From contig NZ_ARQE01000001.1 of the NCBI RefSeq assembly GCF_000382705.1, positions 229,551 through 293,550 on the forward strand: a DNA stretch of 64,000 bases. Reading direction: 5' to 3'. This DNA comes from Aureimonas ureilytica DSM 18598 = NBRC 106430 (GTDB lineage: Bacteria > Pseudomonadota > Alphaproteobacteria > Rhizobiales > Rhizobiaceae). The first letter of the stretch is position 1. Every line of letters begins with the position of its first letter. Below, one piece after another: positions 66-44,509 of the stretch. The notes beneath the pieces were generated by a model. It saw only the letters and a program-made list of their open reading frames with translations, had not been told where the DNA came from and made no database searches. Made by a program: the position numbers and the translations under genes.

Positions 66-2687
66 TCAGCCGCCGTTCGGATATTGGCCGAGCGCCTGGC
101 GCACGGCTTCGAGGCCGCGCGCGCCCTCGCGGTTGCCGGTGCGCGAGACGGCGGAGAACACGCGCTCGGCATCGCCGAAGCGGCGCAGTTCCAGATAGGC
201 GTAGCCGCGCAGCACCATGAGATCGAGCCGCTCGGGCGCAAGGCGCGCGCGCTCGTCCAGCGCCTGGAGCGTTTCCACCGGACGGCGCGCTTCATAGGCA
301 CTGGTCGCCCGCGCGCTCAGAATGGCGACGTCGAGTTCAGTGCGGCGGCGGGCCGGCTGCGGCGCGCGGCTGGCCGCCACGGCGGCACGGTCGGACACGC
401 CGATGCGCAGATAGGCGAGGCTTTCGCCATAGGCGGCGTCCTGGCGCGTCTGGCCTTCGCCGCGCCGGGCGGCGCTTTCGAAATAGGCCGCCGCTTCCAG
501 CGAGCGGTCGAGATCGAGAAGACACCAGCCCTGCGCCATCGCCGCGTCGGGCGCGAGCGTTCCGGGGTCGCGGCCCGTCTGGGCGCAGCGACCGGCACGG
601 CCTCGCGCGGCAGGGGCGGCTGAGGCGACCGGCGCGGCGGATGCGACGGTCGCGGCTGGCTCGGCGGCGCGGCGAACCGGCGCGCGCACGCGCTGGACGG
701 GCTCGGCCTCGACAGGCGCGACCATCGCCATCGCCGGCGCGGCCTCGCTCGGCGCCATGGTCTGCACCGGCAAGGGCGCGGCGAGCGAGGGCGCGGCGGC
801 ATAGGCGGTGGCGGCAGGTGCGGGCGACGAGGCAACCGAAGGCGCCACCATCATCGGCGCCGTGCCCATGGGCATCATGTTGGAGGGCGTGCCCATCTGC
901 ATCGTGCCGGGGGGCATCGGACTCGGAGCCGCCGTGCCGGCGGGCGTAGCCATGCCCGCGACCATCGGCGCGGTGCCGGCGACCAGCGCGGGCGGCGGGC
1001 CGCCGCTGCGCTCGCGCGCGGCCTGGGCGGCGGCGACCTCGGCCTGATCCGGGCGACCGATCGCGGCGATGCGCGGCGAGCGCCCGCCCCACTGGCGCTG
1101 AAGCGCGGCGAGCCCGGCGCGGTCGCCGACGCGCTGGCGCACGAGGGCGAGCCCATAGGCCGATTGTTCGTCCGAAGGCTTCCAGCCGAGCGCCGTTTCG
1201 AACCATTGCGCGGCGGTCGGAAACTGGTTCAGCGCATAGGCGTACCAGCCGAGCTGCTGCGCGCTCGCCGCATCGCGCGCCGCGCCGACCGCCGGCACGA
1301 TGCGGGCGAGAACGGCGGGGTCCACCGGCTGGCCGCTGAGCGAAGCCAAGAGATTGGCGGCGGCGGCGAGATACACGGCCCGCGCCCCGTCGGACTTGTC
1401 CCGCCAGGGGGCCATCGCCTCCTCGGCCTCGCCGTAGCGGCCGAGCGGGATCAGCGACAGGGCGTAGCCCTGCGAAATGCTCTGCGAGTCTTCCTTGGCG
1501 CGGGCGCGCCCGAAGAGATCGAGCGCATCGGCCAGATCGCCCCGGCGGAGCGAATACCAGCCCAGAAGCTCCAGATCGGAGGGCTTGCCGTTCGGCCCGG
1601 CGAGCGCGCGCATCGTCTCGAGGTCCGAGGGCAGGACGGTGACGCCGGCATCGTTGGCGGCGGCGGCGAAGCTGCGGCGGGCGAGATCGTCGCGCACGGC
1701 CTGGAACTCGCCGACGCCCTGCGGGGTCTTGCGCTCGGTCGCCAGAAGCGGGTCGAGATCGGCGCGCGGCAGGAACTGGCTCGCCATCTGGATCGTGGCG
1801 AGGCGCTCGCCCGTGTTGTCGCAATTGGTCAGAATATAGAGATAGGCGTCGCGCCCGCGCTCCGGCCGGTCGGTGCCGACGAAGGCGCGCGCGAGGCGCC
1901 AGAGCACGTCGACGTCGGAGCAGGTCAGAAGGCTCGGATTGTCCGTGGCGAGACGCACCACCGTGTCGAATTGCTGAAGGTTCGACGCGTTGACGAGGCG
2001 CGCGCGGGATTCGGCGAGGTCGAGGCGTGTCAGAAGATCCTGCGGCGGCTGCCAGCCCGCTTCGCTTTCCTGCCGCGCGGCGATCGCCTCGCGCGCTTCG
2101 GCATAGCGCCCTTCGGAATAGAGCTTCCAGATGCGGTCGAGCTCGGGGTCGCCCACCGGCTGCACGTCGAGCGGATTCTCCGGCGGGCGCCAGTTCGGGT
2201 AGAGGGCGCGAAGGCGCGCGATCTCGGCCTCCACGCGGCGCATGTCGCCCTGCTGGGCGAAATAGCGCAGCGCCGTCAGGTCGATCTCGGGCTGCGCGGC
2301 GGCGTCGGCGCTGGCGGCCGAGGCGGAGGCCGCCGGCGCGCTGCCTTGCGTGCGCGGCGCGGGGGCGGCACCGGAGGATGTCGAAGCCGGCGAAGACGCG
2401 CCCGACGCACCCGTCGCCCCGGGAGCCTGCGCCGTCAGAAACGGGACGGGAGCGGGTTTCGGCGGAGCGGGCGCGGACGGGCCGGGAAGGCTAGGCGCCA
2501 TGTCCGCCACGCGCTGGGGCTCGCGCGCGATTTTGTGCGGGCCGTGGGCGACGGGCTGCGAGGCCGCCGGCGCATGGGCGGCGAACAAAGCCGGCCAGTT
2601 CGGCGGGAAGCCGCTCTGCGACCCCTGGATGAGCAGGGCAAAGCTGGCCGCGGCGCCCAGAGCCGCCGTGGTCTTCAACGCAAACAT
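66..2687 (-). CDS. TPR-repeat protein of the cellulose cluster (BcsK/BcsC-like)
   Basis: The product is 873 residues. I chose the ATG at 2687 because it begins a clear signal peptide (MFALKTTAALGAAASFALLI) and overlaps the end of bcsZ by 13 bases. A Pro/Ala-rich linker (about 60-135) follows, then a long alpha-helical region with TPR-like repeats (for example ALRYFAQQGDMRRVEAEI and LGWYSLRRGDLADALDLF). A low-complexity Pro/Ala/Met stretch comes near residues 560-690, and further TPR units run to the C-terminus. In type III alphaproteobacterial bcs operons a TPR protein called BcsK stands where BcsC is found elsewhere; position and composition fit that role. I see no C-terminal beta-barrel of the BcsC type, so it is probably a periplasmic scaffold for cellulose export or assembly. 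The exact family is inferred. Confidence 0.8.
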   Translation of the reverse strand: MFALKTTAALGAAASFALLIQGSQSGFPPNWPALFAAHAPAASQPVAHGPHKIAREPQRVADMAPSLPGPSAPAPPKPAPVPFLTAQAPGATGASGASSPASTSSGAAPAPRTQGSAPAASASAASADAAAQPEIDLTALRYFAQQGDMRRVEAEIARLRALYPNWRPPENPLDVQPVGDPELDRIWKLYSEGRYAEAREAIAARQESEAGWQPPQDLLTRLDLAESRARLVNASNLQQFDTVVRLATDNPSLLTCSDVDVLWRLARAFVGTDRPERGRDAYLYILTNCDNTGERLATIQMASQFLPRADLDPLLATERKTPQGVGEFQAVRDDLARRSFAAAANDAGVTVLPSDLETMRALAGPNGKPSDLELLGWYSLRRGDLADALDLFGRARAKEDSQSISQGYALSLIPLGRYGEAEEAMAPWRDKSDGARAVYLAAAANLLASLSGQPVDPAVLARIVPAVGAARDAASAQQLGWYAYALNQFPTAAQWFETALGWKPSDEQSAYGLALVRQRVGDRAGLAALQRQWGGRSPRIAAIGRPDQAEVAAAQAARERSGGPPPALVAGTAPMVAGMATPAGTAAPSPMPPGTMQMGTPSNMMPMGTAPMMVAPSVASSPAPAATAYAAAPSLAAPLPVQTMAPSEAAPAMAMVAPVEAEPVQRVRAPVRRAAEPAATVASAAPVASAAPAARGRAGRCAQTGRDPGTLAPDAAMAQGWCLLDLDRSLEAAAYFESAARRGEGQTRQDAAYGESLAYLRIGVSDRAAVAASRAPQPARRRTELDVAILSARATSAYEARRPVETLQALDERARLAPERLDLMVLRGYAYLELRRFGDAERVFSAVSRTGNREGARGLEAVRQALGQYPNGG

Positions 2688-39759: not shown

Positions 39760-39874
39760 GAAGGGACGACCCTTCGCGCCCTGACGCCTGTCCGGCGAAC
39801 GCCCCTTCGGCCTCGCGCCCGGACAAGGCGATTCATCGGATGTCAGGGCGTCGTCTTCCGCACGGGACGACCCG
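39760..39874 (+). promoter_or_regulatory. guanidine-II (mini-ykkC) riboswitch with an extended linker
   Basis: Two hairpins with identical GGG-ACGA-CCC tips are present: GAAGGG/CCCTTC around ACGA (39760-39775) and CGGG/CCCG around ACGA (39863-39874). Paired hairpins with ACGR loops define the guanidine-II class, and the gene 24 bases downstream is a SugE/Gdx exporter, its usual partner. The 87-base linker is itself structured: a 9-bp perfect stem (39777-39785 with 39842-39850) and an inner stem (39786-39795 with 39919-equivalent bases 39819 to 39829, correctly within the linker, one bulge). The ribosome-binding GGGG lies just after the second hairpin, so ligand-dependent access to it is the likely mechanism. 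Confidence 0.9.
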
Positions 39875-39898
39875 GCTCCTTTGCATCGGGGTCCTCCC

Positions 39899-40219
39899 AT
39901 GGCCTATCTTCTCCTTCTCGTCGCCGGCCTTCTCGAAGTCGGCTGGGCTTTCTCGATGAAGCTGTCGCACGGCTTCACGCGGCTCGGGCCGACGCTCTTC
40001 ACCTTCGCGCTGATGGCGGCGAGCTTCGCGCTTCTGTCGGTCGCCATGCGGTCGCTGCCGCTCGGCACGGCCTATGCGATCTGGACCGGAATCGGTGCGC
40101 TCGGCGCGTTTCTGGTCGGCATTCTGGCCCTCGGCGAAAGCGCCAGCCCGATGCGCCTCCTTGCCGCCGCGCTGATCCTCGGCGGTCTCGTCCTGATGAA
40201 GGTCTCGTCTCCTTCATAA
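39899..40219 (+). CDS. sugE: guanidinium exporter Gdx (SugE), small multidrug resistance family
   Basis: The product is 106 residues with four membrane helices. Glu13 ([18 protein letters not shown]) is the proton/substrate-coupling residue. [21 protein letters not shown] and GESASPMRL match the SugE/Gdx branch rather than the EmrE drug pumps. It would export guanidinium in exchange for protons as an antiparallel dimer. The ATG at 39899 is preceded by GGGG seven bases away. The guanidine-II riboswitch in its leader independently supports the substrate. Confidence 0.93.
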
Positions 40220-41683: not shown

Positions 41684-42907
41684 ATGCTGGACGAGGACAA
41701 CGCGTCTCCGAGGGTGAACCCGGACGGCAGGCCGACCCTTCGCGACCCGACCCTTCGTGACGGTGAGCGGCCGGGCGAAACGGCGCAGCCTTCGGATCGG
41801 TCCGGCTCCTCCGCCGACGGCCTGGCGACCCGGCCGGGCGAGACGGCCAATCCGCTAGAAGAGAAGCGCCCTTCCCTCCTCAAGCGCCACCCGTTCGCCA
41901 TCCTGCTCGGCCTCGTCCTCGTCGCCCTCGCCTGCGCCGGGGGCTACTGGTACTGGCTGACCTATTCCTATCCTTTCGAGACCACCGACGACGCCTTCGT
42001 CGATTCCCGCCAGTTCGCCATCGCGCCGCAGGTGTCGGGCGCGATCGCCGACGTGCCGGTCGAGGACAACCGGCATGTGAACAAAGGCGACGTTCTCTTC
42101 CGCATCGATCCGCGCGACTACGAGGCGGCGCTGGAAGAGGCCAAGGCGCGCGTCGCCAGCGCCCAGGCCGCCATCAACGGAGCCGACGCGCAGATCGCCG
42201 CGCAGCAGGCGCAGATCGAGGAAGCGCGCTCGCGCGTCACCCAGGCCGAGGCGAGCCTCGGCTTCGCCCAACAGCAGGCCCAGCGCGCCCAGGAACTGGT
42301 GCGGTCGGGCGCGGGCACCGTGCAGACGGCGCAGCAGCAGACCTCCGCCCTGCAGCAGCAGGAAGCGGAACTCGCCAGTGCCCGCGCCGGCGTCGTGTCG
42401 GCGCAGAAGCAGGTCGGCTCGCTCCAGGCGCAGAAGGCGACCGCGATCGCCGATCTCCGGCAGGCCGAGGCGCAGCAGTCGCAGGCCGAGCTGAACCTGT
42501 CCTATGTCACGGTGACGGCCGCGCAGCCCGGCCGCGTCGTGCGGCTGACCGGCGCCGTCGGGCAATATGTCCAGGCGGGGCAGGCGCTCGCCATGTTCGT
42601 GCCCGACGACATCTGGGTCACCGCCAATTTCAAGGAAACGCAGATCACCGACATCCGGCCCGGCCAGAGCGTCGACATCCGCATCGACGCCTATCCCGAC
42701 CACAAGATCACCGGCCATGTGGATTCGATCCAGCCGGGCTCGGGCACGGCCTTCTCGCTCCTGCCGGCCGAGAACGCGACGGGCAATTACGTGAAGGTGG
42801 TGCAGCGCGTGCCCGTGAAGATCGTCGCCGATAACTGGCCGACCGACGTCTCGATCGGCCCCGGCATGTCCGTCGTGCCGACCGTCACCGTGCATCCGCA
42901 GGACTGA
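41684..42907 (+). CDS. EmrA-type membrane fusion protein of a multidrug efflux pump
   Basis: The product is 407 residues from the ATG at 41684 (GGAG seven bases upstream). A 70-residue cytoplasmic N-terminus precedes one membrane helix (about 70-90). The periplasmic part begins TTDDAFVDSRQFAIAPQVSGAI, a barrel/lipoyl motif, continues with a long Gln/Ala-rich coiled coil (about 145-275) and returns through VTAAQPGRVVRLTG to the barrel. It would bridge the MFS pump encoded six bases downstream to an outer-membrane channel not in the window. The substrate is unknown. Confidence 0.92.
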   Translation: MLDEDNASPRVNPDGRPTLRDPTLRDGERPGETAQPSDRSGSSADGLATRPGETANPLEEKRPSLLKRHPFAILLGLVLVALACAGGYWYWLTYSYPFETTDDAFVDSRQFAIAPQVSGAIADVPVEDNRHVNKGDVLFRIDPRDYEAALEEAKARVASAQAAINGADAQIAAQQAQIEEARSRVTQAEASLGFAQQQAQRAQELVRSGAGTVQTAQQQTSALQQQEAELASARAGVVSAQKQVGSLQAQKATAIADLRQAEAQQSQAELNLSYVTVTAAQPGRVVRLTGAVGQYVQAGQALAMFVPDDIWVTANFKETQITDIRPGQSVDIRIDAYPDHKITGHVDSIQPGSGTAFSLLPAENATGNYVKVVQRVPVKIVADNWPTDVSIGPGMSVVPTVTVHPQD

Positions 42908-42913
42908 CCGGCC

Positions 42914-44509
42914 ATGAGCGCGGTTTCGTCCGTCGCCTCGGCCGGGCGGCCGAGCAATCCGTGGATCATCGCGGTGGTGGTGTCGATCGCCACCTTCATG
43001 GAAGTGCTCGACACGACCATCGCCAATGTCGCCCTGCGCTACATCTCGGGCGGGCTCGGCGTCTCCTCGGACGAGGCGTCCTGGGTGGTCACGACCTATC
43101 TCGTGTCCAACGCCATCGTGCTGACGGCCTCGAGCTTCATCGCCAAGCGCTATGGGCGCAAGCGCTTCTATCTCGGCTGCCTCGCGCTCTTCACGATCTC
43201 CTCGGTGCTCTGCGGCCTCGCCTGGAACATCGAGTCGCTGCTCTTCTTCCGCATCCTGCAGGGCTTTGCCGGCGGCGGCATGGTGCCGATCTCGCAATCG
43301 ATCCTTGCCGACAGTTTCCCGCCCGAAAAGCGCGGACAGGCCTTCGCCCTGTTCGGCGTCGCGGTGGTCGTCGCGCCGGTGATCGGCCCGACGCTCGGCG
43401 GCTGGCTGTCCGACAACTATTCCTGGCACTGGTGCTTCCTGATCAACGGCCCGGTCGGCATCCTCGCCTTCGCGCTGGTCTGGTTTCTCGTCACCGAATC
43501 CGACGAAACGCGGCGCGAGCGGGCCGAATTGAAGCAGAAGGGCATCCGCTTCGATCTCGTCGGCTTTCTGGCGGTCGCGACCTTCCTCGGCGCGCTGGAA
43601 CTCGTCCTCGATCGCGGTCAGACGGAGGACTGGTACGGCTCCAGCTTCATCATCGTCTCGACGCTGGTCTGCGTCCTCGCCTTCCTGTTCATGATCCCCT
43701 GGGAGCTGCGCCACGACAATCCGGTGGTGGACCTTCGCATGATCTTCAGCCGGCAGTTCGGCTCCTGCTTCCTCGTGATGATGGCGACCGGCGCGATCCT
43801 GATCGCCACCACGCAGTTCCTGCCCGAACTGCTCCAGACCTATTACGGCTACACCGCGACCTGGGCGGGCCTCGCGCTCTCGCCGGGCGGCGTCGTCACC
43901 ATGACGATGATGTTCGTGGTCGGACGCCTGACGAACGCGGTGCAGCCGAAATATCTGATCGCGCTCGGCGCGGCGATCGTGGCCGGCGCCATGTACGATC
44001 TGACGCGGCTCGTGCCCGATCTGAATTTCGGCTTCTTCGTCTGGTCGCGCGTTTACATCGGCCTCGGCCTGCCCCTGATCTTCATCCCGATCACCACGGC
44101 CTCCTATGACGGGATTCCGCCCGACAAGACGGACCAGGCCTCGGCGCTGATCAACGTGGCGCGCAATGTCGGCGGCTCGATCGGCGTGTCCATCGCGCAG
44201 AACACGCTGGCCTTCCGCGAGCAGTTCCACCAGAGCCGGCTGGTGGAGCACCTCGTGCCGAGCGAGCCGGCCTATCAGCAGACCCTGCAGACGATGAGCC
44301 ACTATCTGCAGACCAAGGGCTTCTCGGCCGCCGACGCTCAGTCCGGCGCGATCGCGCTGATCGGCCAGACGCTGCAACGCCAGGTCGGCACCCTCGCCTA
44401 TATCGACGTGTTCCACGTCCTCATGCTGATCTCGGCCGCCGCCGTGCCGCTCGCCCTGATCCTGCGCAACGTCAAGCGCGGGCAAGGCGCCCCGGTGGGC
44501 GGGCATTAG
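42914..44509 (+). CDS. EmrB-type MFS multidrug exporter (DHA2, 14 TM)
   Basis: The product is 531 residues. Motifs are MEVLDTTIANVAL in helix 1, AKRYGRKRFY (motif A) and GVAVVVAPVIGPTLGGWL (motif C), diagnostic of the DHA2 drug:H+ antiporter family. About fourteen hydrophobic helices are visible. It forms an EmrAB-type pump with the upstream fusion protein and shares its transcript. A bidirectional terminator follows. Confidence 0.93.
   Translation: MSAVSSVASAGRPSNPWIIAVVVSIATFMEVLDTTIANVALRYISGGLGVSSDEASWVVTTYLVSNAIVLTASSFIAKRYGRKRFYLGCLALFTISSVLCGLAWNIESLLFFRILQGFAGGGMVPISQSILADSFPPEKRGQAFALFGVAVVVAPVIGPTLGGWLSDNYSWHWCFLINGPVGILAFALVWFLVTESDETRRERAELKQKGIRFDLVGFLAVATFLGALELVLDRGQTEDWYGSSFIIVSTLVCVLAFLFMIPWELRHDNPVVDLRMIFSRQFGSCFLVMMATGAILIATTQFLPELLQTYYGYTATWAGLALSPGGVVTMTMMFVVGRLTNAVQPKYLIALGAAIVAGAMYDLTRLVPDLNFGFFVWSRVYIGLGLPLIFIPITTASYDGIPPDKTDQASALINVARNVGGSIGVSIAQNTLAFREQFHQSRLVEHLVPSEPAYQQTLQTMSHYLQTKGFSAADAQSGAIALIGQTLQRQVGTLAYIDVFHVLMLISAAAVPLALILRNVKRGQGAPVGGH

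Follow-up and report, generated by a model that had tools for sequence, protein, structure and literature searches.

A dispersed REP-like repeat within the long linker of a very probable guanidine-II riboswitch in Aureimonas ureilytica

Guanidine-II riboswitches (RF01068) are tandem aptamers, and single hairpins of this class cannot be accurately searched for, according to a section of PMC9481103. The linker that joins the two hairpins is given as 7–40 nt long in a passage of PMC7544219, and in the crystal structure of the Gloeobacter guanidine-II riboswitch a 14-nt linker spans 49 Å, as related in an excerpt of PMC5486947. The locus described here lies in a 64-kb stretch of the Aureimonas ureilytica genome, which is called the window throughout and denotes the whole stretch of DNA that was analysed. 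It resembles members of the class in having two ACGR hairpins, GC-rich stems, a SugE/Gdx-type gene downstream, and a second hairpin near the start codon, and it differs from them in an 87-nt linker, a genomic repeat enclosed by a clamp stem, and an Rfam match that is split in two. The guanidine-II class itself is already known; what is new here is the composite linker, in which a dispersed repeat is contained within a clamp stem. That repeat shares with the alphaproteobacterial REP-like elements Br-REP1 and Br-REP2, as portrayed in an excerpt of PMC5082802, the character of short dispersed palindromes that are mostly intergenic and lineage-restricted; it departs from them in its sequence when compared by eye, in having a copy inside a riboswitch, and in the absence of a RAYT match from the genome. 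Within the titles and opening abstract lines of the openly licensed literature, a scope outside which most subscription papers fall, neither a repeat inside a riboswitch linker nor a guanidine-II linker of this length was found to be described.

A first-pass annotation, made from the letters of the DNA, had reported two hairpins with ACGA tips, 87 nt apart and 24 nt upstream of a SugE-like gene, and direct reading showed this report to be exact. The first hairpin, P1 (39760–39775; all features of the locus are on the + strand), has six base pairs (GAAGGG-ACGA-CCCTTC, loop ACGA at 39766–39769) and corresponds to RF01068 model positions 3–18. The second, P2 (39863–39874), has four base pairs (CGGG-ACGA-CCCG, loop ACGA at 39867–39870), corresponds to model positions 36–47, and ends 24 nt before the exporter ATG at 39899. 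P1 and P2 form the sole pair of GG-ACGR-CC hairpins (at least 4 bp, at most 150 nt apart) on either strand of the window, and GGGACGACCC occurs twice in the 64 kb, where 0.20 occurrences would be expected (4 of 100 shuffles reached two). The linker between the hairpins (39776–39862, 87 nt) contains a perfect 9-bp outer stem, formed by CGCCCTGAC (39777–39785) and GTCAGGGCG (39842–39850), which we refer to as the clamp, and an inner stem (39786–39795 with 39819–39829) interrupted by one bulged A. Both linker stems had been recognized at these positions beforehand, and they are present, together with P1 and P2, in the minimum free energy (MFE) fold (−60 kcal/mol, z −3.16, none of 200 shuffles as low). 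In a longer sequence context the z-score was only −1.44, with 20 of 200 shuffles as low, and the folding energy of the linker is not extreme, as 66 of 659 sampled 87-nt stretches from the + strand of the window fold at least as strongly. The spacer from the clamp to P2 (39851–39862) has eight unpaired bases in the whole-RNA fold, in which 39851 extends the clamp and 39860–39861 extend P2.

The gene that follows (39899–40219, 106 aa) encodes an exporter of the SMR family (PF00893, 92.6 bits). Its best NCBIfam model was SugE (NF008512) at 120.3 bits, just below the curated cut-off of 126, and, judging from the family, guanidine would be its substrate. The exporter was matched in 20 of the 21 genomes of the genus, the genome under study included. 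In the relatives, each represented by its best exporter match, a cfa (cyclopropane synthase) gene lies downstream of the exporter in 19 of 19 cases and a nuclease gene lies upstream in 14 of 19, and the sugE site is therefore orthologous across them. Further downstream in the window, beyond both sugE and its neighbouring cyclopropane synthase gene, an EmrA/EmrB-type multidrug efflux pair is encoded at 41684–44509. The same genome also carries a second sugE, preceded by a short-linker riboswitch (L030) with a 17-nt linker that scored 31.7 bits against RF01068.

A strict pair of hairpins was identified 5′ of the exporter in 17 of the 19 same-genus relatives, with linkers of 14–32 nt. The two relatives without a strict pair are L004 (in genome G013, a close orthologue with 90% protein identity), in which the loop of an otherwise perfect P1 is ACGC and not ACGR, and L011, in which P2 fails the strict hairpin rule. 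With these two excluded, P1 was aligned in 19 rows, 15 of them distinct, comprising the 17 relatives, the window site, and the second copy from the same genome (L030). In this alignment 90.7% of cells were paired versus 73.9% in shuffles, 18 cells were changed on both sides versus 6.6, and the covariation score was 0.543 versus 0.197; none of 500 shuffles, a control that ignores kinship among the rows, reached any of these three values. The remaining two of the five covariation measures were not above the shuffles, of which 352 and 327 out of 500 reached them. The locus displays two ACGR-tetraloop hairpins closed by G-C pairs, a position in the leader of a guanidine-related gene (the SMR exporter), and homology to clear members through the orthologous site in 19 relatives. 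On the basis of the orthologous hairpin pairs at the same site, the covariation in P1, and the exporter as target gene, the locus is very probably a real guanidine-II riboswitch, as the first-pass annotation had proposed.

A covariance search with the Rfam mini-ykkC model (RF01068), which had been put forward as a check on that identity, did not reach the gathering score of 32. At gathering score, Rfam recovered only a tRNA across the window, and at a permissive threshold the P1 and P2 halves were returned as two separate matches of 13.2 and 12 bits. The gathering score was also missed by the short-linker sites L003, L004, L016, L017, and L030, and it is a detection threshold more than a biological criterion. 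The 87-nt linker lies outside the descriptive range of the class, and 8–13 nt of it are left unpaired after its stems fold.

Linker lengths were surveyed at 184 SMR-gene loci, leaving out L001 (the same place as L030), L028, and the pattern-search hit L147. This survey resulted in 95 strict pairs, 37 loci with a single hairpin, and 52 with none. The median linker of the strict pairs is 17 nt, and five linkers exceed 40 nt (48, 49, 52, 87, and 142 nt). The unpaired part of the window linker amounts to 11 nt when the linker is folded alone, to 8 nt in the whole-RNA fold, in which P2 is longer by two pairs, and, by arithmetic, to 13 nt if only the 9-bp outer stem is counted. Surveyed linkers shorter than 24 nt leave 1–23 nt unpaired, and the path at the window site is inside that ordinary range. 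At 24 nt and above there are 18 linkers; all but one of them keep 8–13 nt unpaired, and the exception keeps 18 nt. This short exterior path was considered as evidence of selection and rejected, because shuffled linkers gave a still shorter path on average in 15 of the 18 cases. All 18 of these linkers had a folding energy lower than the mean of their shuffles, with p-values of 0.05 or less in 10, in a set whose members are not all independent (L017, L018, and L020 are near-identical, and L155, L157, and L161 belong to one genus) and in which four linkers are pattern-search finds whose folds were part of the reason for retaining them. Separately, in the linkers of L033–L036, L046, L073, L082, L125, L126, L129, L132, L164, and L174 a tiny CCC...GGG hairpin was noted at, or one base after, P1; the structure could amount to a third, small helix in such ordinary linkers, or else to an alternative pairing.

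When the window linker was searched against the genus with blastn, copies of its inner part were found elsewhere in the same genome and in genome G019; the copy at G000:C10:111881-111927, for instance, is 85% identical. A model (R1) was built from an alignment (A1) of 13 repeat copies from which the window copy was left out. Its best match in the window is 39782–39831, a segment that contains the inner stem, with 43.4 bits and an E-value of 7.2e-10. The next best, at 21.6 bits, is a weak, centre-deleted match at 265–290 (+) that is possibly a remnant copy of the repeat. With 150 candidates scored per genome, so that the counts are lower bounds, R1 has at least 17 matches at no fewer than 16 places in the genome, the linker included (15 other copies), and at least 145 matches across the genus, with E-values of 0.001 or better in at least 13 of the 21 genomes. 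Compared with crudely called ORFs, eight of the 15 other copies in the genome show no overlap, three overlap by 3–8 bp, and four by 28–52 bp, so that the repeat is mostly intergenic (in 11 of 15 copies any overlap is confined to 8 bp or less). When the linker was aligned locally with the consensus of the repeat, the score was 42, whereas 5000 shuffles gave no more than 27 and the best of the 94 other surveyed linkers gave 18. Judged by its sequence, the inner stem of the linker is a copy of a dispersed palindromic genomic repeat, which is a new finding, and the earlier picture of the linker as one evolved spacer structure is given up.

As a short palindrome that is dispersed in many copies, the repeat has the attributes of a REP element. 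A search of the genome for the Y1_Tnp domain of RAYT-type transposases (PF01797) gave no match, with control matches in 5 of 14 genomes; the repeat is therefore named REP-like rather than a strict REP, and mobility driven by a RAYT was rejected as its mode of spread. The 3′ part of the linker was also considered as a second palindromic unit of the kind that follows many of the repeat copies, and this idea was dropped, as 923 of 2000 shuffles scored as well.

The flanks of the repeat copy in the linker form the perfect 9-bp stem, a length that was reached by 1 of 5000 flank shuffles. Flank stems in 32 other repeat copies, 15 of the same genome and 17 of the genus, have a maximum length of 3–5 bp, and those in 10 further genus copies one of 3–6 bp. 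Because flank stems are at most 6 bp in these 42 other copies, which were examined out of the 145 genus-wide matches, the outer stem does not belong to the repeat, and that assignment was discarded. In a genus-wide blastn search that scored at most about 40 candidates per genome, the linker itself was the only one among the matches listed to span the full length of the query. The first-pass annotation had named beforehand a loss of the linker pairing in relatives as a result that would count against it, and the repeat insert is indeed absent from the orthologous site in all 19. This absence indicates a lineage-specific insertion and does not thereby disprove a mechanical role for the clamp, and a linker stem that would keep the tips of P1 and P2 within reach fits the anatomy.

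Two origins can be proposed for the outer stem: the linker may already have held a hairpin whose loop received the repeat, or the stem may have formed once the repeat was in place. The linker hairpins of the relatives favour the first, with 5–6 bp in L014, L015, and L017–L020 and a longer hairpin in L016, and inverted repeats can be seen by eye in the linkers of G013 and G019. Weighing against it, P1 was misplaced when the window leader was aligned jointly with those of G019 and G013, and the linker is not convincingly alignable with those of these two nearest orthologues. We put an older hairpin somewhat short of an even chance; it concerns origin and is compatible with the explanation preferred here.

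That explanation, which we regard as probable when taken as a whole, begins with a guanidine-II riboswitch that occupies the leader of an exporter gene of the SugE/Gdx type. In the lineage of this species, the linker between the hairpins would have gained one copy of the dispersed REP-like palindromic repeat, closed by a 9-bp stem that all 42 other copies examined lack. With the repeat closed in this way, the 87-nt linker would act like an ordinary unpaired spacer of 8–13 nt, and kissing between P1 and P2 would still be possible. Kissing stabilized by guanidine would then hold P2 closed and favour translation of the exporter, the mode of action put forward for other guanidine-II riboswitches. 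Guanidine binding, kissing across the linker, translational control, and selection on the clamp all enter this account as putative steps.

In this connection an excerpt of PMC5486947 describes the folded riboswitch as incompatible with a stem-loop that overlaps P2 and the ribosome binding site. The free leader folds so that the P2 strand is base-paired to the sequence around GGGG at 39888–39891, the presumed Shine–Dalgarno sequence, which is located 7 nt 5′ of the ATG. The free fold has an energy of −73.3 kcal/mol versus −69.3 kcal/mol with P1 and P2 forced, a cost of about 4 kcal/mol. The unpaired values of the four G residues are 0.35, 0.08, 0.07, and 0.09 in the free fold and 0.35, 0.00, 0.01, and 0.32 in the forced one, in which GGGG is mostly paired in a local 3-bp stem and mainly 39892–39893 are open. 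The corresponding GGGG of G019 is partly closed in both states, and the GGG of G013 is closed in both. Release of the ribosome site is extended to this locus from the class, and the folding hints at it faintly.

The pairing of GGGG in the forced fold would also suit a switch crippled by insertion of the repeat, in which P1 and P2 are kept by descent, the leader is unresponsive, and the second sugE, with its 17-nt-linker riboswitch at 31.7 bits, does the work. Such a loss of function would sit well with the restriction of the insert to this genome among the 19 relatives and itself, and with the two orthologues whose hairpins are imperfect (the ACGC loop of L004 and the P2 of L011). P1 and P2 of the window site are both intact, however, and the 9-bp clamp is seen only around the repeat copy in the linker, and we consider a crippled switch unlikely.

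Linkers that are long or structured also occur at other loci. In one genus, L155 (G162), L157 (G131), and L161 (G052) have linkers of 142, 49, and 48 nt before sugE, that of L155 being built of tandem CCCCAGCTCGGGCTG-like units, and L075, from Candidimonas, has a linker of 52 nt. A first pattern search, which had a match in 1 of 385 genomes and in which the gap of the window site (91) was one above the limit, yielded L147 with a 71-nt linker. A wider pattern search resulted in 11 places in 10 of 398 genomes, the window included, and added L241 (38 nt), L245 (69 nt, before a urea-carboxylase-like gene), and L246 (50 nt); L239, L242, L243, L244, L247, L248, and L249 were set aside by eye because of short P1/P2 arms or an apparent coding context. 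Most forward matches of the pattern are expected to arise by chance, since the reversed-pattern control matched in many genomes. At L246 (G1065, approximately 1495–1575), an uncertain candidate, the 50-nt linker contains a strong stem, and the downstream protein gave no Pfam or NCBIfam match.

The candidates L155, L157, L161, L075, L147, L245, and L246 share with the window locus a pair of ACGR hairpins and a long linker that folds on itself. Unlike the window linker, those of L075, L155, L157, and L161 score at most 18 against the repeat consensus, a test outside which L147, L245, and L246 fall. The L075 and L147 linkers are single-copy: that of L075 has no second match below an E-value of 0.003 in its genome (40 of 133 candidates scored). 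For the G435 linker, a search of its own genome gave no second match below an E-value of 0.5. As none was found for the L075 and G435 linkers, a repeat origin is so far specific to the window. The first-pass annotation had called the architecture of the window locus unusual, which holds for the repeat and the 9-bp clamp, seen only here, and does not hold for long or structured linkers as such. The RF01068 gathering score was reached by only L037 and L074 of the 16 loci scanned; all eight long-linker loci scanned fell below it, as did the window site (L002). L037, from a Roseomonas sp. (approximately 1390–1480), has three successive ACGR hairpins before sugE, and its first linker carries a 6-bp hairpin.

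The long linkers of L075 and G435, which fold on themselves without being repeats, would be the natural precedent for regarding the whole 87-nt linker of the window as an evolved spacer structure with a coincidental resemblance to a repeat; the R1 match (43.4 bits, E 7.2e-10), obtained with a model built without the window copy, and the consensus score of 42, against 27 for the best shuffle and 18 for the best other linker, make this highly improbable. A chance occurrence of two ACGA hairpins beside sugE, for which the score below the Rfam gathering threshold might be cited, is scarcely credible given that 17 of 19 relatives carry an orthologous pair at this site and that P1 covaries.

More speculatively, the guanidine-II linker may be a tolerated landing site for foreign inserts that fold on themselves, with a clamp that forms, or is kept, between P1 and P2 as a third helix of the aptamer. 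The REP-like repeat would then have been domesticated at this locus, tandem-repeat and other inserts would have been treated likewise in unrelated lineages, and a long-linker group of guanidine-II riboswitches would be missed by present models. This broader proposal is tentative, and we hold it to be possible rather than probable. The long-linker guanidine-II loci that were scanned all score below the Rfam gathering score, which points to a blind spot in detection. The window locus offers the case of a genome repeat that sits inside a riboswitch whose two sensing hairpins are without visible damage, and it would provide a natural test of the distance that can separate the two halves of a cooperative aptamer and of what the linker between them must do.
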